From: Paractinoplanes polyasparticus
GTDB taxonomy: Bacteria; Actinomycetota; Actinomycetes; Mycobacteriales; Micromonosporaceae
Direction: 5' to 3'
NCBI RefSeq assembly: GCF_019710575.1
Contig: NZ_JAHWFK010000041.1
Location: 1 to 64,000, forward strand
DNA: 64,000 nucleotides
Below are positions 27,105-64,000 of the stretch, piece after piece. Each line of letters begins with the position of its first letter. Positions within the stretch are counted from its first letter, which is position 1. The notes under the pieces were generated by a model that worked only from the letters and a program-made list of their open reading frames with translations, was not told where the DNA came from and searched no databases. Both the position numbers and the translations under genes were made by a program.

Positions 27105-27106
27105 GC

Positions 27107-27136
27107 ATGCGGTGGAAGTCAAACGTCCCACCGCAT
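27107..27136. terminator. Bidirectional hairpin between convergent R and M genes
   Basis: ATGCGGTGG (27107-27115) pairs perfectly with CCACCGCAT (27128-27136) around a 12-nt loop, in the 53 bp between the endonuclease and methyltransferase stops. Confidence 0.65.
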
Positions 27137-27157
27137 CACCGCTAGCCCCGGAAACTG

Positions 27158-28399: not shown

Positions 28400-28492
28400 G
28401 AGGCCTCCTTACGGACTAGGCGCGAGCGCGATTGAAGCCGAGTATCTTGCACTAGACGTGCGGCGTTCAGGGACACGCCGTGTGACGGTGGG

Positions 28493-28957
28493 ATGTTCGT
28501 GCCAGAAGACAATGCAGCGGAAGCACGCGAACGTGCGCATGCTAATGGGTTGTACCCCGCGCCGCTTAACGCGGGCCGCTCGCGCAACATGCAGGCCAAC
28601 CGACGCCGGGACACCAAGCCCGAAGTGGTGCTCAGGACCGCATTGCACGCCCTGGGCTACCGCTACCGTAAGGACTTGCTGCTCAGGCTCGACGGAGTCA
28701 GGGTGCGGCCAGACATAGTCTTCACGAAGCGCCGGGTGGCAGTCTTCGTCGATGGCTGCTTCTGGCACGTCTGCCCTCAGCATGGCCGCCAGCCGACCAC
28801 CAACGAGTGGTACTGGACCCCTAAGTTGCGGCGCAATATGGAACGTGACCAACGTGTCAACGACACGCTCGCCGAGGCAGGCTGGTCGGTCGTCAGAGTC
28901 TGGGAACACGTGCCGCTCGACGACGCGATAGCCTCGGTGCGCAGCGCCCTCGAATGA
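28493..28957 (+). CDS. vsr: Very short patch repair endonuclease
   Basis: 154 residues. Vsr features: SRNMQANRRRDTKPEVVLRTALH at the start of the domain, RPDIVF with Asp74, FVDGCFWHVCPQH with His92 and His97, and WSVVRVWEH at the end. It nicks next to T:G mismatches left by deamination of 5-methylcytosine, so it fits with the cytosine methyltransferase divergent from it. The first 30 residues lie before the domain; the start is not fixed by a good ribosome site. Confidence 0.9.
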   Translation: MFVPEDNAAEARERAHANGLYPAPLNAGRSRNMQANRRRDTKPEVVLRTALHALGYRYRKDLLLRLDGVRVRPDIVFTKRRVAVFVDGCFWHVCPQHGRQPTTNEWYWTPKLRRNMERDQRVNDTLAEAGWSVVRVWEHVPLDDAIASVRSALE

Positions 28958-29207
28958 CCGAACATGTGTACGACCCTACAGTCTCCGCCCGCGATGACAC
29001 CAGCCCAACACGCAGGCCCTCGCTGAAGCGCCGGCCGAGCAGTAAGGCCCCCACGGGGCGCGGTGACGAAGGAAGCCGGGCGAGATGCAAGGGAAGGCTC
29101 GCCGCCGCTCACCTGGCCGGAAGTGATCTCGACTGGATGAGGAGCACGCCATCCCCGCGGCATTCAAACTCCCGCCTCACTGGTACAGGCAGACCATCCT
29201 GCGTCTG

Positions 29208-30116
29208 GTGCAGGCCGAGTTGCCCCCACTACTAGGGCCCCTGACAACGGATACCGCGTGGCGATACATCTATGCAATCGTGTTGTGGGCCGAGGTTAAA
29301 GAAGGAAAAAATTACCTGCACCTGAACGACCGGCTATCGAAGGCGGACGGGCGTGACCTGGCCGACAGGGGAGCCGAGTACCTTCGCCGCCACTTTGTCG
29401 ACAACCGCACGACCGACCCGTTTGCGCTTATTGATTTCATCGGTAGAAAATACGACCGCGAGCGGCTATCTCAAGGTCACGAACCTATGAAACGCCGCGA
29501 CTCGAATGTCACAGGCGCCGCGTTCGAGACCGCGCTACAGGTTGTAATTTCAGAGCTTACTGCCTATACCCCAATGAGGACTCCGAAGCTCAATACGTTG
29601 CGGGGATTCGAGCTTGCGCCTGCCGGCTACCACTCGGAGCCAGACCTGGCAATGTTCTCCACGGACAACTTTCGCTTGCTTATATCTACGAAATGGACAC
29701 TTCGGAAAGAGCGCATCGGAACGTACCTTCATGAGGCCCACTTCTATAAGCAGCGACGCAGTGACCTGCAGGTCGCTTTCGTCGTATCTGAGTTCAACGC
29801 GAATATCTTGGACTGGTTAGCGCATGATCCGCTCGTAGACCGCGTCTACCATGTCCGCCTACCGATGTTCCTCGATGCGCATGCCCCCTTTCGGGACATT
29901 CCAGATAGCGGCTCCATCCCGAAGTCTCGGCTGCTTAAACCGGGGAAGGAGCGAGATGCGTTTCGCCGCTGGTTGAGTCTTTCGCGGCGAGTATTCGACC
30001 TGTCGCAGCTTTTCCGGGACATCGAGGCGCTCAGTCCCCTAAGCGAGGCAGCCCCGCCTGATCCTGATGTCGAACCAGGCGATGCCGACGAGGCGGACGA
30101 GGCGGACGAGGCCTAG
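29208..30116 (+). CDS. Unrecognised island protein, possible nuclease
   Basis: 302 residues from GTG 29208. No family recognised. Residues 100-165 contain AAFETALQVVI, then SEPDLAMF and LLISTKWTLRKER: Glu107, Asp146 and Lys162 are spaced like a PD-(D/E)xK nuclease, with Ser160 where the second acid usually sits. The C-terminus is a tandem Asp-Glu-Ala run. GTG 29208 has no ribosome site, whereas the frame stays open to 29127 and an ATC codon at 29151 sits 6 nt after GAGGAG (29139-29144), so translation may begin there. Codon use is poorer in GC than the neighbours and includes TTA at 29817-29819. Position after vsr suggests a defence role. Confidence 0.6.
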   Translation: MQAELPPLLGPLTTDTAWRYIYAIVLWAEVKEGKNYLHLNDRLSKADGRDLADRGAEYLRRHFVDNRTTDPFALIDFIGRKYDRERLSQGHEPMKRRDSNVTGAAFETALQVVISELTAYTPMRTPKLNTLRGFELAPAGYHSEPDLAMFSTDNFRLLISTKWTLRKERIGTYLHEAHFYKQRRSDLQVAFVVSEFNANILDWLAHDPLVDRVYHVRLPMFLDAHAPFRDIPDSGSIPKSRLLKPGKERDAFRRWLSLSRRVFDLSQLFRDIEALSPLSEAAPPDPDVEPGDADEADEADEA

Positions 30117-45393: not shown

Positions 45394-45732
45394 CAGCCAG
45401 ACCGGGGCATAGAGGGTCTCGTCGTCCCGGCGGGGGCTGAGCCGCGTCGCCTCCAGCAGCAGTTGCACCGGGCCCCGGGCATTGGTCACCTCGAAGCCAT
45501 AGCCGCCCCGCAGTGCGGTGGTGTAGCCGGTCAGCAGCACCTCGACGCACTCGCTGCTGATGTCGCCGACCCCGGCGACGTCGAGGACGACCCGGCCCCG
45601 GCGGGTGCGGGCGAAGGCGTCCCGGAGGGCCCGCCGCAGGTCACGGTGCGCCGTGCGGTCGAAGACGCCACCCAGCAGCAGATAGGTCGTCTTACCCGTG
45701 CGGTCGGTGTCCCTCTCGATGGAGAAGCTCAT
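45367..45732 (-). CDS. STAS-domain protein
   Basis: 121 residues. A STAS-like fold with YLLLGGVFDRTAHRDLRRALRDAF and VVLDVAGVGDISSECVEVLLTGY; Ser residues (DISSEC) occupy the site where anti-sigma-factor antagonists are phosphorylated. ATG 45732 follows AGGGG. It converges on, and overlaps, the other STAS gene, so the transcripts are antisense at their ends. It may belong to a general stress or phosphatase cascade. Confidence 0.72.
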   Translation of the reverse strand: MSFSIERDTDRTGKTTYLLLGGVFDRTAHRDLRRALRDAFARTRRGRVVLDVAGVGDISSECVEVLLTGYTTALRGGYGFEVTNARGPVQLLLEATRLSPRRDDETLYAPVWLSGSAADVS

Positions 45733-45889
45733 GACCCCTCTGTATCCAGCGCAGATGGACGGTCGATGACTTCCACGGGGCCAATCGGTAGCCCCTCGCC
45801 GGTGCGACGGAAGATCCGCATACGGGTTGTTGACGGCTTAACGCACGTTTTTCAGGACCCGGATACGAGACAGTTGATCATCGTTTCGT

Positions 45890-45911
45890 GTTTACCTGAT
45901 GTTCATCAATG
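45890..45911 (+). promoter_or_regulatory. PHO-box-like direct repeat
   Basis: Two consecutive 11-nt units, GTTTACCTGAT and GTTCATCAATG, resembling the GTTCACC-type PhoP sites of actinobacteria. It ends 16 bp before the PhoX-like start, so it may overlap the ribosome site or lie over a start site for a short leader. A similar repeat precedes the second phosphatase. Confidence 0.55.
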
Positions 45912-45927
45912 CCGATGGAGGTCAACG

Positions 45928-48000
45928 ATGCCCGATCCCGAACGCCGACTGTTACCGCTGCTCGGCCGCCACAGCGGCGGACGCGACGCGATGACCTGCC
46001 TCTACCGGTGCGGCAACGCCTGCGACCATCCGGCGCCCAACCAGTCCGGCAACGCGTACTTCGGCGACATCGTCAATGCCGCCGTGAGCCGGCGCGGACT
46101 GTTCGCCGCGGGCGGGGCGGGCGCCCTGGTGCTGGGAGTGGGTGGCTCGGCGGTCCCGGCAGGCGCCGCGCCGTCCGCGCCGCCGGCACCGGCGCCGGCG
46201 AAGGGCGGGTCCGCGCTCACCTTCAAACCGATCCCGCCCAACGAGATCGACGCGGTGCTCGTCCCCAACGGCTACGACCACGCGCTGGTGATCCGCTGGG
46301 GCGATCCGATGGTGCCCGGCGCGCCCGCGTTCGATCTCGAGCACCAGACCGGCGAGACGCAGTCCAAGCAGTTCGGCTACAACAACGACTTCCTCTGCGT
46401 GGTGCCGATTCCCGGCAGCGACCGCCGCGCGCTGCTCGTGTCCAACCACGAGTACACGAACGAGGAGCTGATGTTCCCCGGCTTCACCACGCACGAGGCG
46501 CTGCCCGTCGAACAGGTGCGGGCCGCGATGGCCGCCCACGGCATGTCGGTGGTGGAGATCGAGCGGGTCGGGCGCACCGGCCAGTGGCAGGCCGTGCGGG
46601 GCAAGCGGCTGCCCTACAACAAGCGGCTGACCATGCTGGCGACGCCGTTCCGGGCGGACGGCCCCGCCGCCGGATCGCCCTTCCTGCGTACGGTGGCCGA
46701 CCCCAGAGGCACGACCATCATCGGGACGCTGAACAACTGCGCGGGCGGGCTCACCCCGTGGGGCACGGCATTGTCCGGTGAAGAGAACTTCAACCAGTAC
46801 TTCGTCGGTGGCGACGCCGTGCCCGAGGCCGACAAGGCCCGGCTCAACCGCTACGGCATCCTCACCACCGCGCGCTACCCGAGCGGGTCGCGGCGCTGGG
46901 AGCGGGCGCAGGAACGCTTCGACCTCGCCAAGCACCCCCACGAGGCCAATCGCTTCGGCTGGATCGTCGAGGTCGACCCGCTCGAGCCCGGCGCGCTGCC
47001 GCGCAAGCACACCGCGATGGGCCGCTTCAAGCACGAGGGCGCCAACGTCATCGTGGCCAGGAACGGCCAGGTCGCGGCGTACATGGGTGACGACGAACGG
47101 TTCGAGTACCTGTACAAGTTCGTCTCCGACAAGCGGTACCGCCCCGGCGACCGCCGGCACAACCTGACCCTGCTCGAGTCGGGCACGCTCTACGTCGCGA
47201 AGCTCACCGGCGACAGCCCGCCGGCCGAGATCGACGGCACCGGCAAGCTGCCGTCCGACGGCGCCTTCGACGGCACGGGCAGATGGATCAAGCTCGTCTC
47301 CGGCAACACCTCGTTCGTGCCCGGCATGACCGCCGTCGAGGTGCTCACCTTCACCCGCGAGGCCGGCGACAAGGTCGGCGCGACCAAGATGGACCGGCCC
47401 GAAGACGTCCAGCCCAGCCTGCAGAGCGGCAAGATCTATGCGGCGCTGACCAACAACACCAACCGGGGCGTCGGCACCTATCCCGGTGTCGACGAGGCCA
47501 ACCCGCGCGTGGCCAACAAGCACGGCCAGATCTTCGAGATCGTCGAGGATCGCGGCGACCACACCGGCGAGACCTTCACCTGGTCGCTGCCGATCGTCTG
47601 CGGCGACCCGACCGACCCGGCCACCTACTTCGCGGGCTACGACAAGACCAAGGTGTCGCCGATCTCGTGCCCCGACAACGTCGCCTTCGACAGCTCCGGC
47701 AACCTCTGGATCTCGACCGACGGCAACCAGCTGGGCAGCAACGACGGCCTCTTCGCGACCGCGATCGAGGGCCCCGAGCGCGGTCACCTCAAGCAGTTCC
47801 TGACCGTGCCGCCGGGCGCCGAGACGTGCGGACCGTTCATCACCGCCGACGACCGGTCGGTGCTGGTCGCCGTGCAGCACCCGGGCGAGATGACCGGCGC
47901 CACCGTCGACAACCCGGCCTCGACCTGGCCCGACGGCGAGTACGCGAAGCCGGCCGTGGTGGTCACCTGGCGACTCGACGGCGGACGGATCGGGAGTTAG
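45928..48000 (+). CDS. PhoX-family (DUF839) phosphatase, first copy
   Basis: 690 residues from ATG 45928 (GGAGGT at 6 nt). Domain DUF839/PhoX: calcium-dependent phosphatase secreted by Tat. The N-terminus has a Cys-rich stretch (MTCLYRCGNACDHPAPN) before the Tat-type motif SRRGLF and a hydrophobic run. Family blocks NHEYTNEELMFPGF, NNCAGGLTPWGTALSGEENFNQYF and KHTAMGRFKHEGANVI are present. The next gene is a close paralogue. It should release phosphate from organic esters outside the cell under phosphate limitation, consistent with the upstream PHO-box-like repeat. Confidence 0.9.
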   Translation: MPDPERRLLPLLGRHSGGRDAMTCLYRCGNACDHPAPNQSGNAYFGDIVNAAVSRRGLFAAGGAGALVLGVGGSAVPAGAAPSAPPAPAPAKGGSALTFKPIPPNEIDAVLVPNGYDHALVIRWGDPMVPGAPAFDLEHQTGETQSKQFGYNNDFLCVVPIPGSDRRALLVSNHEYTNEELMFPGFTTHEALPVEQVRAAMAAHGMSVVEIERVGRTGQWQAVRGKRLPYNKRLTMLATPFRADGPAAGSPFLRTVADPRGTTIIGTLNNCAGGLTPWGTALSGEENFNQYFVGGDAVPEADKARLNRYGILTTARYPSGSRRWERAQERFDLAKHPHEANRFGWIVEVDPLEPGALPRKHTAMGRFKHEGANVIVARNGQVAAYMGDDERFEYLYKFVSDKRYRPGDRRHNLTLLESGTLYVAKLTGDSPPAEIDGTGKLPSDGAFDGTGRWIKLVSGNTSFVPGMTAVEVLTFTREAGDKVGATKMDRPEDVQPSLQSGKIYAALTNNTNRGVGTYPGVDEANPRVANKHGQIFEIVEDRGDHTGETFTWSLPIVCGDPTDPATYFAGYDKTKVSPISCPDNVAFDSSGNLWISTDGNQLGSNDGLFATAIEGPERGHLKQFLTVPPGAETCGPFITADDRSVLVAVQHPGEMTGATVDNPASTWPDGEYAKPAVVVTWRLDGGRIGS

Positions 48001-48003
48001 AGC

Positions 48004-48025
48004 GTTTACTCTCCGTTCACCGGTT
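48004..48025 (+). promoter_or_regulatory. PHO-box-like direct repeat
   Basis: GTTTACTCTCC (48004-48014) directly followed by GTTCACCGGTT (48015-48025), the second unit matching GTTCACC exactly. It lies 80 bp before the second PhoX-like start. Confidence 0.65.
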
Positions 48026-48105
48026 ACCGGTGGATCGCGACGTGTCGGCTCTCCTAGCGTTCGGGCAGCCCACCATGCGTGCGGCTAGATGATCAAGGAG
48101 AGCCG

Positions 48106-50178
48106 ATGCGTCGACTTCTACCCCTGCTGGGCCACAGTGGTGGCTCACGGGATGCCATGACCTGTCTCTACCGCTGCGGCAACGCCTGCGACCACCCGGC
48201 GCCCAACACGTCGGACAACCCGTACCTCGGTGACGTCGTCAACGCGTCGATGAGCCGGCGCGGTGTCATGCGGGCCGGTGCGGCCGGTGCCCTGGTTCTC
48301 GGAGTGGGTGGCGCTTCCGCCGCTGCGGCGGTCCCGGCAGCCGCCGCACCGGTGCCGGCGACGGCCCCCAAGCCGGCGGGCAAGGCCGGCAAGATCAGCT
48401 TCAAGGCGATCCCGCCCAACACGCTCGACAACCTGGTCGTGCCCAACGGTTACGACTCGGCCGTCGTGATCCGCTGGGGCGACCCGGTGGTGGCCGGCGC
48501 CCCGGACTTCGACCTGGGCGGGCAGACCGCCAAGCGCCAGTCGCAGCAGTTCGGCTACAACAACGACTTCGTCGGGGTGCTGCCGTTCGGCAACTCGGGC
48601 GACCGCGCGCTGCTCGTGGTCAACCACGAGTACACCAACGAGGAGCTGATGTTCCCGGGCTTCACCAGCCTGGACGCGCTCACCGTGGAGCAGATCAAGG
48701 TCGCGATGGCGGCCCACGGCCTGTCGGTGGTCGAGATCGAGCGCGCCGGCCGCACCGGGCAGTGGACGCCCGTACGCTCCAAGCGGCTGCCCTACAACAA
48801 GCGCATCACCGCTCTCGAGACGGTGTTCAAGCTGACCGGCCCGGTGGTCGGCACGTCCGCCGTGAAGACCGCGGCTGACCCGCGGGGGCAGTGGGTCATC
48901 GGTACGCTCAACAATTGCGCCGGCGGGGTCACCCCGTGGGGCACCGTGCTTTCGGGCGAAGAGAACTTCAACCAGTACTTCGTCGGCGGCGACGCCGTTG
49001 CCGAGGCCGACAAGCCGAAGCTGAACCGCTACGGCATCACGACCACGGCCCGCTACCCGAGCGGCTCGCGCAAGTGGGACCGCGCCCAGGAGCGCTTCGA
49101 CCTGGCCAAGCACCCGAACGAGGCCAACCGCTTCGGCTGGATCGTCGAGGTCGACCCGTTCGACCCCGACGCCCCGCCGCGCAAGCACACCGCGATGGGC
49201 CGCTTCAAGCACGAGGGCGCCAACGTCATCGTCGCCAAGAGCGGGCACGTCGTCGCGTACATGGGTGACGACGAGCGCTTCGACTACCTCTACAAGTTCG
49301 TGTCGGAGAAGAAGTACCGCCCGGGCGACCGCCGGCACAACCTGACCCTGCTCGAGTCGGGCACGCTGTACGTCGCTCAGGTGACCGGCGACAGCCCGGC
49401 GGCCGAGATCGACGGCACCGGCAAGCTCCCGTCCGACGGGGCCTTCGACGGCACCGGCAAGTGGATCAAGCTGGTCTCGGGGAACAAGTCGTTCGTTCCC
49501 GGCATGACCGTGGCCGACATCCTCACCTGGACCCGGCTGGCCGGCGACGCCGTCAAGGCGACCAAGATGGACCGTCCCGAGGACGTCCAGCCGAGCCTCC
49601 GCACCGGCAAGATCTACGCGGCGATGACCAACAACACGAACCGGGCCGTCGGCACGAACCCGGGCGTGGACGAGGCCAACCCGCGCAGCGCCAACAAGCA
49701 CGGCCACATCTTCGAGATCACCGAGGACAAGGGCGACCACACCGGCGAGTCCTTCACCTGGACCCTGCCGATCGTGTGCGGCGACCCGGCCGCCGCCGAC
49801 ACCTACTTCGGCGGGTACGACAAGACGGCCGTCTCGCCGATCTCGTGCCCCGACAACGTCGCCTTCGACAGCGCCGGCAACCTCTGGATCTCGACCGACG
49901 GCAACGCCCTGGGCACCAACGACGGCCTGTTCGCGACCCCGATCGAGGGCTCCGAGCGCGGCCACCTGCGGCAGTTCCTCACCGTGCCGCGCGGCGCCGA
50001 GACCTGCGGCCCGTTCATCACCGGCGACGACCGCTCGGTCTTCGTCGCGGTCCAGCACCCCGGCGAGATCTCCGGCGCCACCGTCGACAAGCCCGTCTCC
50101 ACCTGGCCCGACGGCGACTACGCCAAGCCGGCCGTGGTGGTCTCGTGGCGCCTCGACGGCGGCCCGATCGGCAGCTGA
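48106..50178 (+). CDS. PhoX-family (DUF839) phosphatase, second copy
   Basis: 690 residues from ATG 48106 (AAGGAG at 5 nt). Same architecture as the upstream paralogue: MTCLYRCGNACDHPAPN near the start, twin-arginine SRRGVM with a hydrophobic run, and the DUF839 blocks NHEYTNEELMFPGF, NNCAGGVTPWGTVLSGEEN and KHTAMGRFKHEGANVI. The two copies are highly alike along the whole length, so the tandem arose by duplication. Each has its own PHO-box-like element and spacing, so they may be separately tuned. A terminator follows. Confidence 0.9.
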   Translation: MRRLLPLLGHSGGSRDAMTCLYRCGNACDHPAPNTSDNPYLGDVVNASMSRRGVMRAGAAGALVLGVGGASAAAAVPAAAAPVPATAPKPAGKAGKISFKAIPPNTLDNLVVPNGYDSAVVIRWGDPVVAGAPDFDLGGQTAKRQSQQFGYNNDFVGVLPFGNSGDRALLVVNHEYTNEELMFPGFTSLDALTVEQIKVAMAAHGLSVVEIERAGRTGQWTPVRSKRLPYNKRITALETVFKLTGPVVGTSAVKTAADPRGQWVIGTLNNCAGGVTPWGTVLSGEENFNQYFVGGDAVAEADKPKLNRYGITTTARYPSGSRKWDRAQERFDLAKHPNEANRFGWIVEVDPFDPDAPPRKHTAMGRFKHEGANVIVAKSGHVVAYMGDDERFDYLYKFVSEKKYRPGDRRHNLTLLESGTLYVAQVTGDSPAAEIDGTGKLPSDGAFDGTGKWIKLVSGNKSFVPGMTVADILTWTRLAGDAVKATKMDRPEDVQPSLRTGKIYAAMTNNTNRAVGTNPGVDEANPRSANKHGHIFEITEDKGDHTGESFTWTLPIVCGDPAAADTYFGGYDKTAVSPISCPDNVAFDSAGNLWISTDGNALGTNDGLFATPIEGSERGHLRQFLTVPRGAETCGPFITGDDRSVFVAVQHPGEISGATVDKPVSTWPDGDYAKPAVVVSWRLDGGPIGS

Positions 50179-55220: not shown

Positions 55221-55396
55221 AATGCGCATGTGCACAATTGAAGTGAGGTATAGCGGCGAACCGTTGAATGAATTGATTCCCCCTGGCGGGTCGTCCGGCC
55301 ATCGGTTACGTTGAGGAAACGCATCTCAGCGACGAGATTTGGCTTTGTCGACCCTGCCGAACTGACCTGCTCAACGGCCATCCGGGGAGTCGTACT

Positions 55397-56851
55397 GTGC
55401 CTGATTCAGACCCGCTCCTGCTGACCCCGAAAATGGACCCGATCATCCAATCGGTTCTCGCCGGTCCCGCACTCCTGCGACAACTCACGGACGGACTCGG
55501 TTCCCCGCTCAACATCGTTCTGCCCGAGGCGCTGGACGCCAATGTGGCGGCTTTCCGGGCGGTCTATCGGCAGCACCGGCTGCGCGGCCAGATCTATTTC
55601 GCGCACAAGGCGAACCGCTCCTCGGCCCTGCTCCGCCACCTGGCCACCACCGACGCCGGGGTGGACGTAGCCTCGCTGGGCGAGTTGCAGCACGCGCTCG
55701 GCGCCGGGTTCGGTCCCGGTCGCATCATGGCCACCGGCCCGAAGAACCGCGAGTTCCTCTGGCTGGCCGCACGCAGTGGCAGCACCGTGAACGCCGACTC
55801 GCTCGACGAACTGAGCGAACTGGCCGGCCTGGTGGCGGCGGGCCGATTACCCCGCGTACGCGTCATGGTGCGCCTGGCCGAGTTCGCCTCCCGCGGCGTG
55901 CACATGGTCAGTCGCCGCAGCCGCTTCGGGGTGCCGGCCGGGCTGCTGCCCGAGGCGCTCGACCGCATCGACAAGCACGCCGATCAGCTCGAGCTGGCCG
56001 GGGTGGCGTACCACCTGGACACCATCGGCGTAGCCGAGAAGGCGATCGCGCTGGAGGGCTGCCTGGCCGCGCTCGACGAGTGCCGCCGCCGGGACGCGCC
56101 GGCCTGGTCGATCGACATCGGCGGCGGCTTCGGCGTGAACTACCTGGACGACGGGGAGCAGTGGGAGCGGTACACGTCCGAGCTGGCCCAGGCTGTGCTC
56201 GGGCGGCGGCCCCCGCTGACCTGGAACGGGCACGGCTACGGGCTGCGCAACGAGGCCGGCACGCTGCGGGGGGCGCTCGGGCTCTACCCGGCTCACCGGC
56301 CGGTTTCCGGGCCCGGTTACCTGAGCCAACTGCTCGCGGCCACCGCGCCCGAGCAACGCCGGCCGCTCGGCACGCTGCTGCTCGACAGCATGACCGACCT
56401 CGACATCGAGCCCGGGCGGGCGCTCCTCGACCAGTGTGGATTGGTGCTGGCCCGCGTGCTCGAGGTGCGGGACGGGCCGGACACTCTCGTACGGCTCGAG
56501 ATGAACTCGCGGGATGTGAGCCTCGAGGAACACGGGGTTCTGATGGATCCGATCGTCATCCCGCAGGACTCCGCCGGCTTTGCCGGGCCGGCGGAGGTCT
56601 TCCTGCTCGGCAACCTGTGCCTGGAGTCCGACCTGATCACGCGGCGCAAGGTGGTCCTGCCCGTACGGCCCCGGCCCGGCGACCTGCTCGCCTTCGTCAA
56701 CACGGCCGGCTACTTCATGGACTTCAGCGCCACCCGCGCCCTGCATCAGCCGATCGGCCGCAAGGTCGCGCTCTTCCGCACCGGCGGCCGGTGGAGCTGG
56801 TGCCTCGACGAGCAGTACTGGCCCGTCCCCGAGCGCGCGGAGGCAGCATGA
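55397..56851 (+). CDS. Fold-III PLP-dependent decarboxylase-like enzyme (Y4yA-like)
   Basis: 484 residues from GTG 55397 (GGGGAG at 7 nt). Alanine-racemase-type barrel as in diaminopimelate/ornithine decarboxylases: PLP lysine Lys71 in FAHKANRSS, pyridine-stacking His206 in YHLDTIG, phosphate loop IDIGGGFGVNY (242-245), EPGRALL (338-341), then the beta domain with Cys408 in GNLCLESDL and Tyr439 in NTAGYFMDF at the places of the decarboxylase active-site Cys and Tyr. The closest remembered family is the uncharacterised Y4yA type, first known near y4xP on the Rhizobium NGR234 plasmid. First gene of a three-gene operon; the substrate is not known. Confidence 0.8.
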   Translation: MPDSDPLLLTPKMDPIIQSVLAGPALLRQLTDGLGSPLNIVLPEALDANVAAFRAVYRQHRLRGQIYFAHKANRSSALLRHLATTDAGVDVASLGELQHALGAGFGPGRIMATGPKNREFLWLAARSGSTVNADSLDELSELAGLVAAGRLPRVRVMVRLAEFASRGVHMVSRRSRFGVPAGLLPEALDRIDKHADQLELAGVAYHLDTIGVAEKAIALEGCLAALDECRRRDAPAWSIDIGGGFGVNYLDDGEQWERYTSELAQAVLGRRPPLTWNGHGYGLRNEAGTLRGALGLYPAHRPVSGPGYLSQLLAATAPEQRRPLGTLLLDSMTDLDIEPGRALLDQCGLVLARVLEVRDGPDTLVRLEMNSRDVSLEEHGVLMDPIVIPQDSAGFAGPAEVFLLGNLCLESDLITRRKVVLPVRPRPGDLLAFVNTAGYFMDFSATRALHQPIGRKVALFRTGGRWSWCLDEQYWPVPERAEAA

Positions 56852-58155
56852 GATACGACGACATGACCGAGGCGATCGGCAACACCCCGCTGGTCCGCAT
56901 CGACCCTGACGTGCACGGCCTGCGCAACATCGACCTGTACGCCAAGATGGAGCTGCTCAACCCGTTCGGCTCCCTCAAGGACCGCGCGGCCTGGCAGATG
57001 GCCCGTCCACTGCTGGCCGGCGCGGCCGAGCGGGGCGACACGGTGGTCGAGCTCTCGAGCGGCAACACGGCCAAGGCCCTCGCCATGATCGCCGGGATGC
57101 ACGGGCTGCGTTTCAAGAGCGTCACCAACCGCATGAAGGTCCCCGAGGTCAAAGACCTTCTGCTGCTGCTCGGTGCCGAGATCGACGAACTGCCGGGCCA
57201 GGCCGAATGCCTCGACCCGAGCGACACCGAGGACCCTCTCTCGCGCATGCACCGCACGCTGACCAGCAACGGCAGCGGATATGTGCACACCGACCAGTAC
57301 TTCAACGAGCGCAACGTCGAGGCACACCTGCACGGCACCGGGCCCGAGATCATCAAGGACCTCGACGGGCACGCGCCCGACTACTTCATCGCCTGCGTCG
57401 GCACGGCCGGGTCGTCGACCGGGGTGGCCCGGGCCCTCCGGCAGCACGACCCCGACGTGCGGGTCATCGGGCTCGTCGCGGCCAAGAGCGACTTCATCCC
57501 CGGCATCCGGACCATCGACGAGGTGCACGAGGTCGGGCTGTTCGAACCGGACGTCTACGACAGCATCGAGACCATCACAGCCGACGACGCCATCGACGGC
57601 CTGCTGACCCTCGTGCGTCGCTGCGGCACGCCGGCCGGGCCCACCGGTGGCGGCGCCTTCCACGGCGCTGTCCGTCACCTGCGTACGCTCGACGACTCGC
57701 TCACCGAGCGCCGGACAGCGGTCTTCATCGTCTGCGACCGGGTCGAGAGCTACCTCTCCTACCTGCGGGAACGGCGGCCCGCCCTGTTCGGCCGGCCGCC
57801 ACGGAGGAACGACACCCGCCTGCTGGACGAGGCCGAGGTCGCGGCGGCGCCGACGATCGACGTCGAGGAGGCGCAGCGGTGGCCCGGCCTGGTCGTCGAC
57901 CTGCGCAGCCCGTACGCGTTCCAGGCCCTGCACATCGACGGCTCGATCAACATCGTCGACGAGCTGTTCGCCGAGCTGCTCCACGGTGGACTGCCGTTCA
58001 GCCGCCGGCAGCCCGTGCTGCTGGTGTGCCCGGTCGGCGAGAAGTCGGCCCGCTATGCCGCACTGCTGACCAGGATGGGTCACCCCTCGGTGCGGTCGCT
58101 GGCCGGCGGCGTCATCGCCTGGCGCGACGCCGGCGCGCGGCTGGTGCGTGACTGA
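56848..58155 (+). CDS. Cysteine-synthase-like PLP enzyme fused to rhodanese
   Basis: 435 residues from ATG 56848, overlapping the previous stop (ATGA). Residues 1-315 are a fold-II PLP enzyme of the O-acetylserine sulfhydrylase type: IGNTPLVRI, Lys44 in NPFGSLKDRAAW, SSGNTAKALA (70-79) and the phosphate-binding GTAGSSTGVA (185-194). Residues about 335-435 are a rhodanese domain with active-site Cys394 in VCPVGEKSA and substrate frame LVVDLRSPYAFQALHIDGSINI. Such a fusion can bring persulfide sulfur to a beta-replacement reaction on an activated serine or analogue. It may make an unusual thiol amino acid. Confidence 0.85.
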   Translation: MRYDDMTEAIGNTPLVRIDPDVHGLRNIDLYAKMELLNPFGSLKDRAAWQMARPLLAGAAERGDTVVELSSGNTAKALAMIAGMHGLRFKSVTNRMKVPEVKDLLLLLGAEIDELPGQAECLDPSDTEDPLSRMHRTLTSNGSGYVHTDQYFNERNVEAHLHGTGPEIIKDLDGHAPDYFIACVGTAGSSTGVARALRQHDPDVRVIGLVAAKSDFIPGIRTIDEVHEVGLFEPDVYDSIETITADDAIDGLLTLVRRCGTPAGPTGGGAFHGAVRHLRTLDDSLTERRTAVFIVCDRVESYLSYLRERRPALFGRPPRRNDTRLLDEAEVAAAPTIDVEEAQRWPGLVVDLRSPYAFQALHIDGSINIVDELFAELLHGGLPFSRRQPVLLVCPVGEKSARYAALLTRMGHPSVRSLAGGVIAWRDAGARLVRD

Positions 58156-59321
58156 TGACTCTCGCCCTCGACCTCGACGTGCGCTCACAGTTTCCCCAGC
58201 TGGTGGGCAGTCCGGGCGTCGCCTACCTCGACAGCGCCGCCACCGCGCAGAAGCCGCAGGCCGTACTGGACGCGGTGATGACCTATCTGACCAGCGAGAA
58301 CGCCAACGTCGCGCGCGGCACCTACCCCTGGGCCAACCGCACCACGACCCGCATCGCGCAGACCCGCGACCAGCTGCGCCGATTCCTCGACGATCCGTCC
58401 CCCGAGACGTCGGGCGTGCACTTCGTCAGCGGCACCAGCGAGGGGTTACGGACCATCGCGCTCGACTGGCTACCCACGGTGCTGGGCGACGGTGACGAGA
58501 TCATCGTGCCGTTCGCCGACCACAGCGCCAACCTCGTGCCCTGGCTGGACACCGCCGAACTGCTACGACGTCAGGGCACGCACGTAGTGGTGCGGCCCAT
58601 GCCGTACGACTCGGCGCAGGACTACGACGTGGCGCGCCTCCCTGTCGGCCCGCGTACCCGGCTGATCGCCGCCACCCACGTGCACCACGTCTACGGCAAC
58701 GACATGAACGTGCACCGCCTGCGCGCGGCGGCCGGTCCCGACATCCCGATCTGCCTGGACGCCGCGCAGAGCTTCGGCCACCTGCCGCTTTCGGTGCGCG
58801 ACCTCGATGTGGACTTCGTGGTCTTCTCGGGTCACAAGGCGATGGCGCTGCCCGGCATCGGTGCGGTGTGGGCCCGCAACCGGCGCGGCCCCACGTTCGC
58901 TCCCGCCGGCTGGAGCGGCACACCGAACACGGCCGGAATCGTGAGCCTCGCCGCAGCCATGGACTGGCTCTCGTCCGTGGGCCTGTCGCGCATCTCGTCG
59001 TCGATCGTCGCGCTGGGCGCCCGGCTGACGGCGGGGCTCGCCACTCTGCCGAGCTACGAGGTGCTGGGCTGCCAGGACAGCCTGGCCGCAGAATCGACGG
59101 TGCAGCGGCGCCACGGGATCGTCACGTTCCGGCACCGCGAGATCGGCTCCAACGACCTCGGCTTCATCCTGGCCGCGGACGGCCTGCTCGTGCGGGCCGA
59201 CGGCCACTGCCAGGGCACGGACGGCGAGAAGACCTCGTCCGTACGGGTGAGCTTGCACGTCTACAACACGGCCGACGAGGTCGACCGGTTGCTCGCCACG
59301 CTGTCCGCGCTCGATTCCTGA
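58155..59321 (+). CDS. Class V aminotransferase-fold, cysteine desulfurase-like enzyme
   Basis: 388 residues; its ATG shares one base with the previous stop. SufS/NifS-like fold I: YLDSAATAQKP at the start, ATHVHHVYGNDM, LDAAQSFGHLPL with Asp202, PLP lysine Lys228 in FSGHKAMALPG, and catalytic Cys352 in VRADGHCQG followed by SSVRVSLHVYNTADEVDRL as in group II desulfurases. It should release sulfur from cysteine (or a related amino acid) as a persulfide, which the rhodanese domain of the neighbour could accept. No SufBCDU genes lie nearby, so this is not the housekeeping Suf system. Confidence 0.85.
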   Translation: MTLALDLDVRSQFPQLVGSPGVAYLDSAATAQKPQAVLDAVMTYLTSENANVARGTYPWANRTTTRIAQTRDQLRRFLDDPSPETSGVHFVSGTSEGLRTIALDWLPTVLGDGDEIIVPFADHSANLVPWLDTAELLRRQGTHVVVRPMPYDSAQDYDVARLPVGPRTRLIAATHVHHVYGNDMNVHRLRAAAGPDIPICLDAAQSFGHLPLSVRDLDVDFVVFSGHKAMALPGIGAVWARNRRGPTFAPAGWSGTPNTAGIVSLAAAMDWLSSVGLSRISSSIVALGARLTAGLATLPSYEVLGCQDSLAAESTVQRRHGIVTFRHREIGSNDLGFILAADGLLVRADGHCQGTDGEKTSSVRVSLHVYNTADEVDRLLATLSALDS

Positions 59322-59326
59322 CGGAA

Positions 59327-59359
59327 AAGCCCCCGCCTCCGAATTGGAGACGGGGGCTT
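59327..59359. terminator. Bidirectional hairpin terminator
   Basis: AAGCCCCCG (59327-59335) pairs with CGGGGGCTT (59351-59359); one mismatch, then CTCC/GGAG, loop GAATT. It sits between the PLP operon and the convergent secreted nuclease gene. Confidence 0.8.
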
Positions 59360-59369
59360 CCCACGGGTG

Positions 59370-62300
59370 CTACCTGGTGACCTTGACCGTGTAGGTCTTG
59401 GCCTCGGCGGTGTTACCCGCCCGGTCGGTCGCCGTGTAGGTGACCTTCAGGGTGCCCTTCTCGACGCCCTTCACCGGAATGCTCCAGTGGCCGAGCAGCA
59501 GAGACGGCGTGTCGGTCAGCACCTTGGCCTTGGCGGCGGCCTCGGACTGCGAGGACGCCTTGACCCACTTGCTGCCGTCGTAGAAGTGCCACTTCCCCGC
59601 GCGCTCCTGGATCAGGGACGCCTGGGCTTGGGCCACGCCCAGACCCTTGTCGGCCGCGAAGCCCGACACCGAGCGCCACGAGGACGCCGCCGCCGGGTTG
59701 CCCGGCACGTCGAGCAGGACGACCGGCGCCACCGTGTCGGCGGTGACCTTCACCGAACCGGCCGTGACGGCCCGGCCCGCGCCCGCGGCGTTGTGCGGGG
59801 TGACCTTGACCGTGAACGTGCCGGCCCCGGTGTAGGTGTGGGCGACCAGCGCGCCGTTGGCCGACATGGTGGCGGACGCGCCGTCGCCCCAGTCGACAAC
59901 GATCTTGCTGGCGCCGTCCACCTTGCTCACCGCGAGCACCGTGAACTGGCCGGCCCAGATCGAGCGCGGCTCGAGCAGATACCGGCCGGGCTGTGCCACC
60001 ACCTTCACCTGCGGCGAGCCCTCGAAGGCGGCCGCGGCGGTGTTGCCGGCCTTGTCCGTCAGCTGCACCGACACGGTGTAGGTGCCGGTCGCGGCGTACG
60101 TGTGGGTCGCTGTGTTCGCGTCCAGCGCCGACGACGTTCCGTCGCCCCAGTTGACGACCCGCTCGGCGACGTCGTCGGCCACCGCGACCTGGGTCAGCGT
60201 CACCGACTGTCCCGGCCACAGCGTCACCGCGCCGAGCTTGAACGTGCCGGTCGGCGGCGTGCTGTCCTCGACGCCCGGCGTGCTGCGCGGGGCCGGGTCG
60301 GCGGTGATCGGGGAGTTGGCGGCGAAGTAGTCGACCAGCATCGTCAGGTCGTTGTCGCCCGTGGTGATCTCGTTGGTGCCCTGTCCGAGCGTGACGAAGT
60401 TGTCGCCGCCGGCGGCCAGGAACGAGTTCGACGTGACGCGGTAGCTCCCCGCCGGGTTCAGCACGACGCCGTTCAGCTTCAGCGACGACGCGATGATCCG
60501 CGAGCCGCGGGGCTGGTTCACGTCGTACGAGTAGGTCAGCCCCTTGGACACGCCGAGGTGCAGCACCGGGCGGGACGCACCGTCCGGCTGCCACTGCTCC
60601 TCGAGCACCTGCTTGATCTGCGCCCCGGTGAGCGTCTGGGTGACGACATCGTTGGCGAAGGGCTGCACCGAGAAGGCGTTGGCGTAGGTGACCGTGCCGT
60701 CGGCGCCGTAGAGCAGATCGGCCCGCAGACCGCCCGGGTTCATGAAGGCGATCTGCGCGCCACCGCGGCCGGGCGCGCTGGTCTGGTCGAGCTGCACGTC
60801 GGCGATGAAGTTGCCGAGCACCGACTCGGCGCCCCGGTCCTCGGCGCCGGCGGCCGTGTAGGCCCGCTTGATGTCCGCCGTGATCTTGCCGAGCGGCTGC
60901 TTGCCCAGCTCGTCCGCGGTCACCTTGGCCTTGGCCACGATGCCGGCGACCGCGGCGTTCGCCGGATAGCCCTTGACGTCGAGCAGTTCGGCGGTCGACC
61001 CGGTCACCGACCTGGTGGCCGGGTCGTACGTGAGCACCGCCTGGCCCAGGCGCAGTCCGTAGTCCTCGGCCTGGATCACCGGGCGGGTGCGGTCGGTGCC
61101 GGGCACCGGAACCTGGAACGCGTACGGCTGGTGGGTGTGCCCGCTGAAGATCGCGTCGATCTCGGCGCTGACCCGGGTGAACTGGCCGAACACAGGGTCG
61201 GCCTGTAGCGCCGCCGCCGAGCCGATGTTCTCGGTCGCCGCGCCCTCGTGGGCCAGCAGCACCAGCACGTCCGCCTCGCCGTTGGCCTGGTTGCCGTCGG
61301 AGAGCTGCGCCGCCAGGGTGTTGGCCTCGGCGACCGGGTCGCGGAACTGGACCCCGGCGATGCCGTCCGGGCTGACCAGCGACGCGGTCTGCTCGGTGAC
61401 CACGCCGATGTAGCCGACCTTGACCCCGCCCAGCGTCTGCACGCTGTAGCCGGGCAGCACACGCTCGCCGTCCTTGTAGACGTTGGCCGCCAGGAACGGG
61501 AACTCGGCCCGGTCCGAGACGCGGCCCTGCAGGTCGGCCAGGCCCTTGTCGAACTCGTGGTTGCCGACCGCCGAGACGGCCAGGCCGCCGGCGTTCAGCG
61601 CGTCGATCGTCGGGTTGTCGCCGTCGATGGCCGAGATGAACGTGGACGCGCCGATGTTGTCGCCGGCCGAGATCCACGCCGTGTTGGGGTTGGCCTTGCG
61701 CAGCTCGTCGACCATGCCGACCAGCTGGGCCGCGCCGCCGTTGCCGGCCGACGGCTGCTCGAGCCGGCCGTGGAAGTCGTTGATGCTGAGCAGCTGCAGG
61801 TCGACCGGACCACTCGCGCCGGTGTCGAGCCCGACCACGACCGGGTCGTGGTCGCTGGCCCGGTGCGGGCCGTCGGAGTAGAACGGCGCGTAGCCGTCGT
61901 ACTCGTAGGCGAACGACTCGACCGAGTTGATGTTCCAGACGTCGACGCCGGTCACCCGCGCGGCGAGCGAGGCCGAGGCCAGCGCGTGGTCGAGCGAGCC
62001 GGACTCGCCGCCGAAGACGTACGACGACTGGTCGGCGTCGGCCACGTTGGTGTAGCCGGCGTCGGCCAGAACCTGGATCGGGTCTTCCTGGCTGTACGCG
62101 TTGAAGTCGCCCAGAAGGAGCACGTCGGAGGTCCCGAGCGACTTGACGAAGGTGGCCAGCGCGGCCGCCTGCCGTTTGCGGTCACCGTTGTACGGACCCT
62201 GCCCGTCCCCGGTGTCCACGTTGTCGCCCGTCGGCGGGGTCGACGCGCTCTTGGACTTGAGGTGGTTGGCGACCACGGTGAAGGTGGCCGAACCGGCCGT

Positions 62301-64000
62301 GAAGGTCTGCGCGATCGGCTCGCGAGCGTTCGACCACACCGACTCGTCGCTGACCGAGCGCGAGGCGCCCTTCGGCGTCACCGCGGCCGGCTTGAAGATG
62401 ATCGCCGTGGTGATGAAGTCCTGCTGCGCGGCCGCCGGCAGCTCGGCCGGCGAGCGCACGTAGTCCCATGTGCCCGCACCGTCTACCGCATTCAGCGCGC
62501 CGACCAGGGTGCGCAGCGCCACCTGGGGATCGTCCGGCTCGAAGCGGACCGAGTTCTCGATCTCCATGAGCGCGACCACATCGGCGTCCAGCGCGCTGAT
62601 CGCCGAGACGATCTTCGCCTGCTGCTTGGCCAGCGCGGCCGCGTCCACCGCGCCGCGCGCCTCGCCACCGAAGTGGACGAAGTAGTTGAGCACGTTGAAA
62701 CTCGCGACGCGCACGTCGCCACCCACGTTCGCCGGGGCCGGCGTACGCGGGTTGCTGTCCTTGAAGGTCGTGCCGAGCGCCGCCGGATCGGTGGGCTGCA
62801 GGCGCCACTCGCTGAAGCCGAAGCTCAGCACGCTCGGCCCGAACTTCTCGACGGCGTCGCCGACCCGGATCGGGTTGTCCTTGGTCAGATAGGCCGGGGG
62901 CAGACCCGCGGTGGCCAGGTTGGTGGTCCGGCCGTCGTCGACCAGGATCCGGCGCGTCTTGTTGGCCGCCTTGATCTGGCCGGCTTCGGCCGAGCCGGGG
63001 CGGGCCAGGTCGGTCGGGATCCGGGCGGGCTCATTGCCGGCGGCCAGGATGATCTCGCCGAACCGGTTGGTGTTGTAGACGTCCGAGACCGTGTACGCGC
63101 CGACCGGCGCCACCAGCATCGACTCGACCGACTCGCGGGCCGCGTCGTCCAGCGGCAGGCTCAACGCCACCGGGGCCGGCAGCGCCACACCGGTCGCGCA
63201 GACCGCGGTGTCCGCCTGGGCGGTGGTGGTGATCTCGGTGAGGCCGTTGAACTCGGTGACCGTGCCGGTGACGCGCACCCGATCGCCGACCGTCACCGAC
63301 GGCTTATTGGTGCCGAAGAAGACGAAGATCGCGTCCGAGGCGGTGCCCGCGGCGACCGGCCGGTCCCCGCCAGTGCCCGCGGTCTGCACGTAGACGCCGT
63401 TGTAACCGCCGGTGCGGTGGTCGGCCGTGACGACACCCTCGACAGTGACCTTGGTGTTGGCCACGGGGGTGTCGGCGCCGGCACCCTGCACCTGAGCGAT
63501 CGTGTGGGTCGGGGCGATGGTGCAGTCGGCCGGCTCTTCCGGCTCCTCGGGCGGCACGGCGGCGTTCAGCGCACCGAACGAGGCGGCTGCGGGGGCCTGC
63601 CACTTGCCGTCGATCTTCTGCAGCGAGTGCCCGACCGGCGTCGAGTCGATCTCCGAGACGCCGATGTCAATGCTGGTGAGGCCGTTGGCCGGGCCGCCGG
63701 TGGCGGTCAGGACGCCCTCGTAGCTGAGGAACTCGGCCACCGAGCCGTCCGGCTCGACCAGGGCGACACCGTCGGGCGGGCCGTTCTGGATGCCGTTGGC
63801 CGGGTAGGTCTGCACGACCACGCCCGCCGCCGGGACGGCGCCGCTCAGCGTGGCTGTGTTGTAGCCCGCGCCGCCGCTGCCGTTGTAGAGGACGATCTGC
63901 CAGCCGGTCAGGTCGAAGCCGGCCGGCGCCTGCACCTCGATCGACTCACCGCTGTCGGTGCCGGCGTTGTCGTAGTGGATCTCGCTGATGAACGGGTCGC
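59370..64000 (-). CDS. Giant secreted nuclease/5'-nucleotidase with PKD repeats (partial, 5' end outside)
   Basis: At least 1,540 residues; it enters from the right edge. In protein order: a lamin-tail-like domain (FISEIHYDNAG to about 63,650), an OB-fold NucH/ExeM segment (VTVEGVVTADHRTGGYNGVYVQ), an endonuclease/exonuclease/phosphatase domain (RVASFNVLNYFVHF at about 62,710 to DHDPVVVG at about 61,840), a metallophosphatase (SINDFHGRLEQ, GDNIGAST, GNHEFDKG), a 5'-nucleotidase C-terminal domain (FMNPGGLRADLLYG), two PKD-type repeats with NWGDGTSSA and DWGDGASAT, and a final Ig-like segment. No sorting signal at the C-terminus. It should cut extracellular DNA/RNA and dephosphorylate the nucleotides, giving phosphate and nucleosides. 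Confidence 0.9.
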   Translation of the reverse strand, partial: DPFISEIHYDNAGTDSGESIEVQAPAGFDLTGWQIVLYNGSGGAGYNTATLSGAVPAAGVVVQTYPANGIQNGPPDGVALVEPDGSVAEFLSYEGVLTATGGPANGLTSIDIGVSEIDSTPVGHSLQKIDGKWQAPAAASFGALNAAVPPEEPEEPADCTIAPTHTIAQVQGAGADTPVANTKVTVEGVVTADHRTGGYNGVYVQTAGTGGDRPVAAGTASDAIFVFFGTNKPSVTVGDRVRVTGTVTEFNGLTEITTTAQADTAVCATGVALPAPVALSLPLDDAARESVESMLVAPVGAYTVSDVYNTNRFGEIILAAGNEPARIPTDLARPGSAEAGQIKAANKTRRILVDDGRTTNLATAGLPPAYLTKDNPIRVGDAVEKFGPSVLSFGFSEWRLQPTDPAALGTTFKDSNPRTPAPANVGGDVRVASFNVLNYFVHFGGEARGAVDAAALAKQQAKIVSAISALDADVVALMEIENSVRFEPDDPQVALRTLVGALNAVDGAGTWDYVRSPAELPAAAQQDFITTAIIFKPAAVTPKGASRSVSDESVWSNAREPIAQTFTAGSATFTVVANHLKSKSASTPPTGDNVDTGDGQGPYNGDRKRQAAALATFVKSLGTSDVLLLGDFNAYSQEDPIQVLADAGYTNVADADQSSYVFGGESGSLDHALASASLAARVTGVDVWNINSVESFAYEYDGYAPFYSDGPHRASDHDPVVVGLDTGASGPVDLQLLSINDFHGRLEQPSAGNGGAAQLVGMVDELRKANPNTAWISAGDNIGASTFISAIDGDNPTIDALNAGGLAVSAVGNHEFDKGLADLQGRVSDRAEFPFLAANVYKDGERVLPGYSVQTLGGVKVGYIGVVTEQTASLVSPDGIAGVQFRDPVAEANTLAAQLSDGNQANGEADVLVLLAHEGAATENIGSAAALQADPVFGQFTRVSAEIDAIFSGHTHQPYAFQVPVPGTDRTRPVIQAEDYGLRLGQAVLTYDPATRSVTGSTAELLDVKGYPANAAVAGIVAKAKVTADELGKQPLGKITADIKRAYTAAGAEDRGAESVLGNFIADVQLDQTSAPGRGGAQIAFMNPGGLRADLLYGADGTVTYANAFSVQPFANDVVTQTLTGAQIKQVLEEQWQPDGASRPVLHLGVSKGLTYSYDVNQPRGSRIIASSLKLNGVVLNPAGSYRVTSNSFLAAGGDNFVTLGQGTNEITTGDNDLTMLVDYFAANSPITADPAPRSTPGVEDSTPPTGTFKLGAVTLWPGQSVTLTQVAVADDVAERVVNWGDGTSSALDANTATHTYAATGTYTVSVQLTDKAGNTAAAAFEGSPQVKVVAQPGRYLLEPRSIWAGQFTVLAVSKVDGASKIVVDWGDGASATMSANGALVAHTYTGAGTFTVKVTPHNAAGAGRAVTAGSVKVTADTVAPVVLLDVPGNPAAASSWRSVSGFAADKGLGVAQAQASLIQERAGKWHFYDGSKWVKASSQSEAAAKAKVLTDTPSLLLGHWSIPVKGVEKGTLKVTYTATDRAGNTAEAKTYTVKVTR

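Follow-up and report, generated by a model that had tools for sequence, protein, structure and literature searches.

Three coupled PLP enzymes of Paractinoplanes polyasparticus as a candidate pathway to a zinc-binding amino-acid product

What do three tightly coupled pyridoxal 5'-phosphate (PLP) enzymes, one of them fused to a rhodanese, produce in an actinomycete? The question is raised by a stretch of 64,000 nucleotides from Paractinoplanes polyasparticus (contig NZ_JAHWFK010000041.1, positions 1 to 64,000; hereafter the window). On its forward strand, gene A (55397..56851) encodes a fold-III PLP decarboxylase-like enzyme of 484 amino acids, gene B (56848..58155) a cysteine-synthase-like PLP enzyme of 435 amino acids with a fused rhodanese domain, and gene C (58155..59321) a SufS-like (type II) cysteine desulfurase of 388 amino acids. 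A-B-C probably makes a small zinc-binding molecule, because the genes often stand beside zinc-uptake genes in related bacteria. That they are the core of a route, independent of nonribosomal peptide synthetases (NRPS), to a small metal-binding (most likely zinc-binding) and sulfur-containing amino-acid product is a reading held here in even balance. Its parts differ in strength: a link to zinc taken by itself is quite likely, sulfur in the product is slightly favored, and a secreted zincophore is somewhat doubtful.

A conserved gene unit with intact catalytic residues

Gene A begins with GTG, preceded by GGGGAG at 55384-55389. It overlaps B by 4 bp (ATGA), and B overlaps C by 1 bp (TGATG); a first-pass annotation of the window had reported both overlaps, which the coordinates bear out, and had concluded that the three genes act together. 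Their conservation points the same way. In a scan of named genomes, from which the best 80 of at least 579 relatives were kept, A adjoins B in all 80 loci from other genomes and C is present in 74, a conservation that excludes a chance arrangement. Across 29 loci of our choosing, the pairwise distances for A, B, and C track one another, with correlations of 0.93-0.97. A-B-C is one inherited unit. It was found across several phyla, its hosts being Actinomycetota, Obscuribacterales-like metagenome-assembled genomes (MAGs), one Ktedonobacterium, and Micavibrio; phylum proportions among the best 80 are uninformative, because the ranking was toward a Nocardia-type query. Counting the window's own genome in each case, full-length B with its rhodanese occurs in 41 of 60 genomes of the window's genus, and phylum-wide only 6 of 396 genomes match B at E <= 1e-45, one of them in pieces at contig ends. 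The gene order is A-B-C in Streptomyces, Hoyosella, the Obscuribacterales-like MAGs, and the window's genus, and C-D-A-B, with an additional gene D, in Nocardia and Nocardioides loci. Both order types occur within one genome in G079 and in Nocardia MAG-47 (L109 and L126). Three stretches of viral contigs matched a pattern, but none of them codes for a relative of B. Literature searches in an open-access library turned up the three-gene cluster in no title or abstract, which does not prove that it is unpublished.

Six of the best 80 loci lack C. Contig ends cut three of them (L062, L064, and L111), two retain remnants of C, and the Micavibrio MAG locus (L135) has a different type of desulfurase in the cluster. 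The remnants lie beside complete D-A-B at L075:6635-6844 (Nocardia uniformis) and L109:7027-7260 (a Nocardia MAG) and suggest that the desulfurase can be lost. One further locus, L176 (G052:C44), has B and C without A; a complete A-B-C copy stands elsewhere in that genome (L036).

The catalytic residues are intact. They were surveyed in 129 loci, 73 with A-B-C order and 56 of the Nocardia type (L033, in which the frames of A, B, and C are broken, was omitted). Where the alignment covers A (Pfam Orn_Arg_deC_N, PF02784, 2.1e-23), Lys71 (codon 55607-55609) is kept in 127/127 loci and Cys408 (56618-56620) in 128/128. B consists of a PALP domain (PF00291, 3e-52; residues 7-297, 56866..57738) and a rhodanese domain (PF00581, 4.6e-14; residues 346-427, 57883..58128), which aligns to rhodaneses of known structure. 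The PALP residues Lys44 (the Schiff-base lysine, codon 56977-56979), S71, G72, N73, G219, and R221 are invariant in all 129 loci, and so is Cys394 (58027-58029) in the active loop CPVGEKS of the rhodanese. In C (Aminotran_5, PF00266, 3e-72), Lys228 (58836-58838) and Cys352 (59208-59210) are kept in 123/123 loci where covered; Cys352 aligns at the catalytic-Cys position with the Cys of Bacillus subtilis SufS, which we take to be the catalytic residue. The first-pass annotation had named K71/C408, K44/C394, and K228/C352 as kept, and its numbering is exact for all six. The alignments indicate that the sulfur-relay residues of B and C are under constraint. For two PDB chains titled only 'Rhodanese domain-containing protein' (8h4h and 8h4q), the match to the B profile stops at position 374, before the active Cys.

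All three proteins score far under the NCBIfam cut-off for the named family closest to each. A reaches 108.8 bits with the LysA model (cut-off 297.9) and is ~31-33% identical in tblastn to enzymes annotated as the Y4yA family. Among CysM and the O-phosphoserine sulfhydrylases, it is CysM that the PALP half of B matches best in sequence. In alignment to 2jc3 and 2bhs it shares an SSGNT-type loop and an IPGIR motif with Escherichia coli CysM, and it is CysM/SbnA-like in sequence, although at 169.2 bits the CysM cut-off of 413 is not reached. Unlike CysM, B bears a rhodanese domain and sits between the genes of a decarboxylase and a desulfurase. As in the SufS/CsdA type II desulfurases, C has the PLP lysine, the Cys, and a C-terminal region of the form VRVS...YNT; it scores 250.7 bits with the TIGR01979 sufS model (cut-off 475.1, not reached). 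In contrast to Suf systems, no SufBCD, SufU, SufE, or IscU was found among the checked neighbors of C, and the adjoining genes encode a GDPD protein and a nuclease/5'-nucleotidase. Likewise, a Pfam check of ten other frames, a part of those in the window, showed no carrier protein, NRPS, or Suf gene, none of which the first-pass annotation had seen nearby. The best-scoring paralogue of C in the window genome is only ~31% identical and lies on a different contig; C is thus probably not the housekeeping desulfurase.

Zinc genes and variant clusters in relatives

In relatives, the frequent companions of the unit are a methyltransferase, ZnuA-type transporters, Fur/Zur-family regulators, COG0523 GTPases, and His-rich proteins. 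The survey of the window's genus took in 42 of 43 copies (the first copy of G034, L009, was omitted) and, once L176 was dropped for its lack of A, 41 loci. A methyltransferase gene follows C in 33 of these 41. In 15, ZnuA is encoded at a distance of up to 6 kb, accompanied by a permease gene in 14 of the 15 and an ArsR gene in 10. ZnuA is scarce, with 1-5 matches per genome in a survey of 45 genomes that is in agreement on these 15 loci, so that by chance such proximity would be expected in well under one locus. The regions upstream of the operon were scanned for a Zur motif published for actinobacteria (PMC5472717), of which the ten fixed positions were scored, with mononucleotide shuffles as the expectation. 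Zur-box-like sites matching at least 9/10 positions precede 6/41 genus loci (0.06 expected), and sites matching at least 8/10 precede 13/41 (1.56 expected). The site of L171 lies 384 bp upstream and may serve another gene. In an earlier scan with other scoring, the best scores of many Nocardia-type and Streptomyces loci were barely above the shuffle mean.

Five zinc markers (ZnuA, ABC-3 permease, COG0523 GTPase, Fur-family regulator, and a His-rich small protein) were also sought by tblastn within 8 kb of B. At least one is present at 18/42 genus loci, at 10/19 loci of Streptomyces and similar (for loci with G handles this label is a guess), and at both the Ktedonobacterium and the Micavibrio locus. 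It is present at 6/10 Obscuribacterales-like loci, or 5 without the dubious L120, whose match is a repetitive His-rich frame and probably false; these ten records include L120, titled Cryomorphaceae, and L122, titled Proteobacteria. In L127, L128, L132, L133, and L134, a His-rich frame of ~100 amino acids lies ~0.9-2.4 kb past the start of the methyltransferase match. Frames of this length with about one quarter histidine stand near the operon at L128:10045-10344, L038:11521-11823, and L117:6818-7165; that of L128, the one tested, has no Pfam match.

The window genome itself is tied to this context through the methyltransferase. Its best match to the methyltransferase that relatives encode after C is found on another contig (G000:C54:185381-186088; 50% identity, 224 bits), 280 bp ahead of a ZnuA domain match and ~140 bp ahead of the point where the ZnuA gene starts in the alignment. 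Genes for an ATPase, a permease, ArsR, and a COG0523 protein stand at the same locus, as do two Zur-box-like sites. The methyltransferase is 71.6% identical to that of L035, the second copy of G034. There, ~10 kb of sequence encodes, in this order, A, B, C, methyltransferase, ZnuA, ATPase, permease, and ArsR, and one other open frame separates the methyltransferase from ZnuA. Given this resemblance, A-B-C of the window looks like half of a unit whose other half stands with zinc uptake. The window locus may have lost its methyltransferase, or the copy on C54 may remain from a second operon. A class-I methyltransferase-like gene is also present in the window at ~53.2-54.1 kb (+ strand), ~1.3 kb before the operon and beyond the GDPD gene. 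This frame was rejected as the counterpart of the relatives' post-C methyltransferase, its best blastp match having E 0.001 over 106 residues.

Variant clusters add further components. In the Nocardia-type loci, protein D, encoded between C and A (L109:7342-8595, L032:5022-6311), has a C-terminal HMA heavy-metal domain with a CxxC motif (CxHC), which supports a metal-related reading. Its N-terminal domain of ~330 residues has no Pfam or clear fold match and was not searched alone. No D was found in the window genome, an informative result because the D query found a target in 3/10 genomes. The compact Micavibrio version (L135:6410-11763) starts with a desulfurase gene of the IscS/DndA type (TIGR03235, 345 bits; cut-off 480) and further comprises a CooC-like ATPase, A, B, and a Zur-type regulator gene that shares 4 bp with the end of B. 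No SufS-type C is present in the 14 kb of this locus, a view limited by the contig end. The arrangement is read as a replacement of C by another type of desulfurase and hints that desulfurase activity is needed. In the Ktedonobacterium locus (L117:8999-11317), two B genes stand in tandem, the first without rhodanese, and C is on the opposite strand.

The Obscuribacterales-like clusters additionally encode an Asp/Arg-hydroxylase-family protein, CooC-like ATPases, an amine-oxidase-like flavoprotein, a weakly GNAT-like protein, Fur-family regulators, methyltransferases, a BT1-family transporter (a BT1/MFS-family gene is present in six of these loci), and a protein of ~540 amino acids termed U (e.g. 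L118:5823-7436). U has a DGNHR motif, seen by eye, and matches nothing in Pfam (E 0.01) or NCBIfam apart from one sub-cut-off match at E 0.07. Its structural model is of middling quality (pLDDT 64). In VIA-align, SerK/SbnI proteins occupy eight of the top nine rows (Z 5.3-6.7; the ninth is a Pyrococcus protein, and ParB rows score 3.7), a ranking that is weak by itself because Z below 8 is the tool's own warning level; Foldseek gave nothing significant (best E 0.84, SbnI). The VIA-align rank and Z scores, together with the motif, make U a possible member of the serine kinase family. SerK/SbnI proteins make O-phosphoserine for SbnA, and U would, at the strength of this ranking, support a serine-derived donor. 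No SbnI-like serine kinase was recognized beside the window operon.

Candidate chemistry and rival explanations

Desulfurases make persulfides, which are carried by rhodaneses; the aminoacrylates that PALP enzymes form can be attacked at the beta-carbon, and fold-III enzymes decarboxylate amino acids. A route can be proposed on this basis. C would draw sulfur from L-cysteine, bind it as a persulfide on Cys352, and pass it to Cys394 of the B rhodanese, which would stand in for a SufE/SufU acceptor. At Lys44, the PALP half of B would turn an activated serine, probably O-phosphoserine, into a PLP-aminoacrylate, which the sulfur kept nearby would attack. A would then decarboxylate the product or a later intermediate, and in many relatives the methyltransferase encoded after C would methylate it. 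The final compound would be used for zinc uptake or intracellular zinc handling. The first-pass annotation had proposed that sulfur moves from a desulfurase through a rhodanese to a beta-replacement enzyme. This relay is plausible, its residues being invariant where covered, but the metal setting, most likely of zinc, had been missed.

Several points weigh against a zinc-binding, sulfur-containing product. In the window, none of the zinc genes tested lies within 8 kb of B, no methyltransferase of the relatives' type follows C, and the whole 64 kb contains no Zur-box-like site at 9/10 (best at the operon, 7/10). By tblastn, the zinc markers are missing within 8 kb of B from 24/42 genus loci, the window included, and from all 57 Nocardia-type loci. 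The loci share kinship, so that the counts are not independent; the six loci with the stronger boxes amount to about four independent cases, because two pairs have near-identical sites. The marker survey was not blind, since markers and seeds were picked after positive loci had been seen. The metal is not fixed either, because the one ZnuA tested matches both MntC (Mn) and AztC (Zn) models under their cut-offs and the HMA domain of D scores copper-chaperone models. ZnuABC would import free metal, and no metallophore exporter or receptor stood out in actinomycete loci, where no systematic transporter search was made. As to the chemistry, making cysteine from cysteine would be futile, so that the acceptor or the product must be unusual. 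Moreover, the fungal PALP-rhodanese enzyme Fda4 (see below) forms a C-N bond and aspergillomarasmine A (AMA) synthase makes a zinc chelator, which renders a metal chelator likelier and a sulfur-containing product less certain.

Y4yA/SbnA-type modules (rhizobial y4yB-y4yA-y4xP-y4xO-y4xN-y4xM) likewise combine a fold-III decarboxylase and a cysteine-synthase-like enzyme in one cluster. Staphyloferrin B is presumably the product of such a module, of SbnH with SbnA. Six Y4yA-type loci were read. Those of Sinorhizobium and Bradyrhizobium contain IucA/IucC, octopine dehydrogenase, and MFS genes, that of Bradyrhizobium additionally a TonB receptor and an iron ABC transporter. Those of Aureimonas and Rhizobium contain ornithine cyclodeaminase and MATE genes and a divergent iron ABC transporter. 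In the Mycobacterium avium locus, ornithine cyclodeaminase and MATE genes occur and copper genes stand several kb off; the Sulfitobacter locus has an SbnA-labelled enzyme and a flavin adenine dinucleotide (FAD) protein without a metal gene. Siderophore or iron-transport genes thus lie in or beside four of the six clusters (Sinorhizobium, Bradyrhizobium, Rhizobium, and Aureimonas), and the presence of related A-B pairs in siderophore clusters of several rhizobia supports the metal reading. The comparison with y4yA/y4xP loci that the first-pass annotation had suggested therefore led to mostly metallophore-like clusters, but their cysteine-synthase partner has no rhodanese. Conserved neighbors that would join the genes to a known kind of pathway were found in part, as zinc genes in relatives and as these clusters.

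The two groups also differ in their partners. The cysteine-synthase partner of the Y4yA type is a PALP domain alone in 6/6 loci, whereas B adds the rhodanese, and the Y4yA-type regions read have no annotated desulfurase, whereas the present system has C. Seven partner queries (three ornithine cyclodeaminases, octopine dehydrogenase, IucA/IucC, ParB, and the FAD protein) were run by tblastn (E 1e-6) against 130 loci of the present system, 73 with A-B-C order (window included) and 57 of the Nocardia type. They matched none of them, while each matches its control locus of origin among the six and most also match other controls. Ornithine cyclodeaminase or octopine dehydrogenase is found in 5/6 control loci, which are the query sources, against 0/130, and the IucA/IucC synthetase in 2/6 against 0/130; the rhizobial-type ParB is also absent from all 130. 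By tblastn, no SbnB-like or siderophore-synthetase partner was thus found near the present system. Given the PALP-only partners and the empty searches, the two groups look like alternative ways of loading a beta-carbon, with nitrogen in the Y4yA type and probably with sulfur in the present system.

The serious rival to a sulfur-containing product, although unlikely on balance, is a sulfur-free aminopolycarboxylate chelator. B would join O-phosphoserine to an amino-acid amine through a C-N bond, A would decarboxylate the product, and the rhodanese and C would have some other function, for instance in priming or regulation. Precedents exist. Fungal Fda4 resembles B by description in combining a PLP cysteine-synthase fold with a rhodanese-like domain, and it condenses O-phosphoserine with L-Ala in partnership with the FAD-dependent oxidoreductase Fda3 (PMC12751119). 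AMA synthase uses O-phosphoserine and L-Asp to make a zinc chelator (PMC8319579), and the marasmins are metal chelators like the proposed A-B-C product. The amine-oxidase-like flavoprotein of the Obscuribacterales-like clusters and the SbnB-like or opine-dehydrogenase-like partners used by Y4yA-type relatives would also fit C-N chemistry, with which the zinc context is compatible. However, Fda4 and AMA synthase, compared here by description, have neither a desulfurase nor a decarboxylase partner in the portions of the accounts available. An accessory role of sulfur also sits poorly with the invariance of Cys394 (129/129) and of the Cys of C (123/123 where covered), with the other type of desulfurase in the Micavibrio locus that has no SufS-type C in 14 kb, and with the seven nitrogen-type queries, which are positive in controls and negative in all 130 loci.

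Less probable still is a role in intracellular sulfur trafficking under metal stress, with C and B repairing or loading a metal or cofactor site (a thiolated metallochaperone, Fe-S, or a persulfide supply) and no small molecule being secreted. That no exporter stood out in the actinomycete loci, in which none was systematically sought, would agree with this, and the CooC-like ATPases (Obscuribacterales-like, Micavibrio), the COG0523 GTPases, and the Nocardia-type HMA protein look like intracellular metal handlers. The decarboxylase and the methyltransferase, however, look like small-molecule biosynthesis, as do the Asp/Arg-hydroxylase-family protein, the amine-oxidase-like flavoprotein, and the BT1/MFS transporter of the Obscuribacterales-like clusters. 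The weakest alternative is the view of the first-pass annotation, a sulfur amino-acid pathway without a metal link whose zinc neighbors reflect coincidence or shared ancestry; this improbable view accommodates the 24/42 genus and 57/57 Nocardia-type loci without a tested zinc gene, but zinc genes recur in loci of the genus, of Streptomyces and similar, and of the Obscuribacterales-like, Ktedonobacterium, and Micavibrio records, Zur-box-like sites exceed the shuffles, and the methyltransferase link persists in the window's own genome.

If the product is a zinc-binding, sulfur-containing amino acid, the system would by analogy be a variant of the NRPS-free amino-acid metallophores. Ethylenediaminedisuccinate (EDDS), made by the aes genes, which are reportedly under Zur control, and the opine-like zincophores are likewise NRPS-free zinc chelators derived from amino acids, a likeness drawn by description. 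Opine-like clusters were mapped by CntM homologues (PMC7438024). A sulfur-centered product would set the present system further apart. As AMA synthase adds two units derived from O-phosphoserine to a nitrogen, one may speculate that the PALP half of B adds one or two such aminoacrylates to a single sulfur atom from cysteine, offered by the rhodanese arm. The resulting lanthionine-like or persulfide-bridged amino acid would, after the action of A and methylation, become an S,N,O zinc chelator. Such a sulfur-centered counterpart of the marasmins, an unlikely reading as it stands, would be built by three PLP enzymes of three folds in Actinomycetota, Obscuribacterales, Ktedonobacteria, and Micavibrio.

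Surroundings of the operon and wider meaning

Upstream of A lies the divergent GDPD gene, and downstream of C the convergent gene for the large nuclease/5'-nucleotidase (both by Pfam). Between C and the latter, a hairpin at 59327..59359 (AAGCCCCCG...CGGGGGCTT) is likely a terminator, so that the operon probably ends after C; its sequence was read by eye, with no terminator scan. The convergent gene (59370-63935) encodes a protein of 1521 amino acids with endonuclease/phosphatase, metallophosphatase, 5'-nucleotidase, and PKD domains. Further upstream, two related genes stand side by side at 45463-50178, the second of the PhoX type (Pfam PF05787). A region of lowered G+C content (~0.62) at 26058-30116, with a C-5 cytosine DNA methylase and, by eye, a mismatch-repair-endonuclease-like frame, is a possible restriction-modification island.

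If the proposed role is correct, the resemblance of the three enzymes to an ordinary decarboxylase, cysteine synthase, and SufS has hidden a widespread pathway of zinc handling, in which a rhodanese domain would feed sulfur directly to a beta-replacement enzyme. The operon of three to four genes offers a concrete test system, with zinc control predicted in some strains. It also bears on why fungal Fda4 has a rhodanese-like domain and on the rhizobial y4yA/y4xP-type genes, whose role is called enigmatic in a review (PMC3973906).

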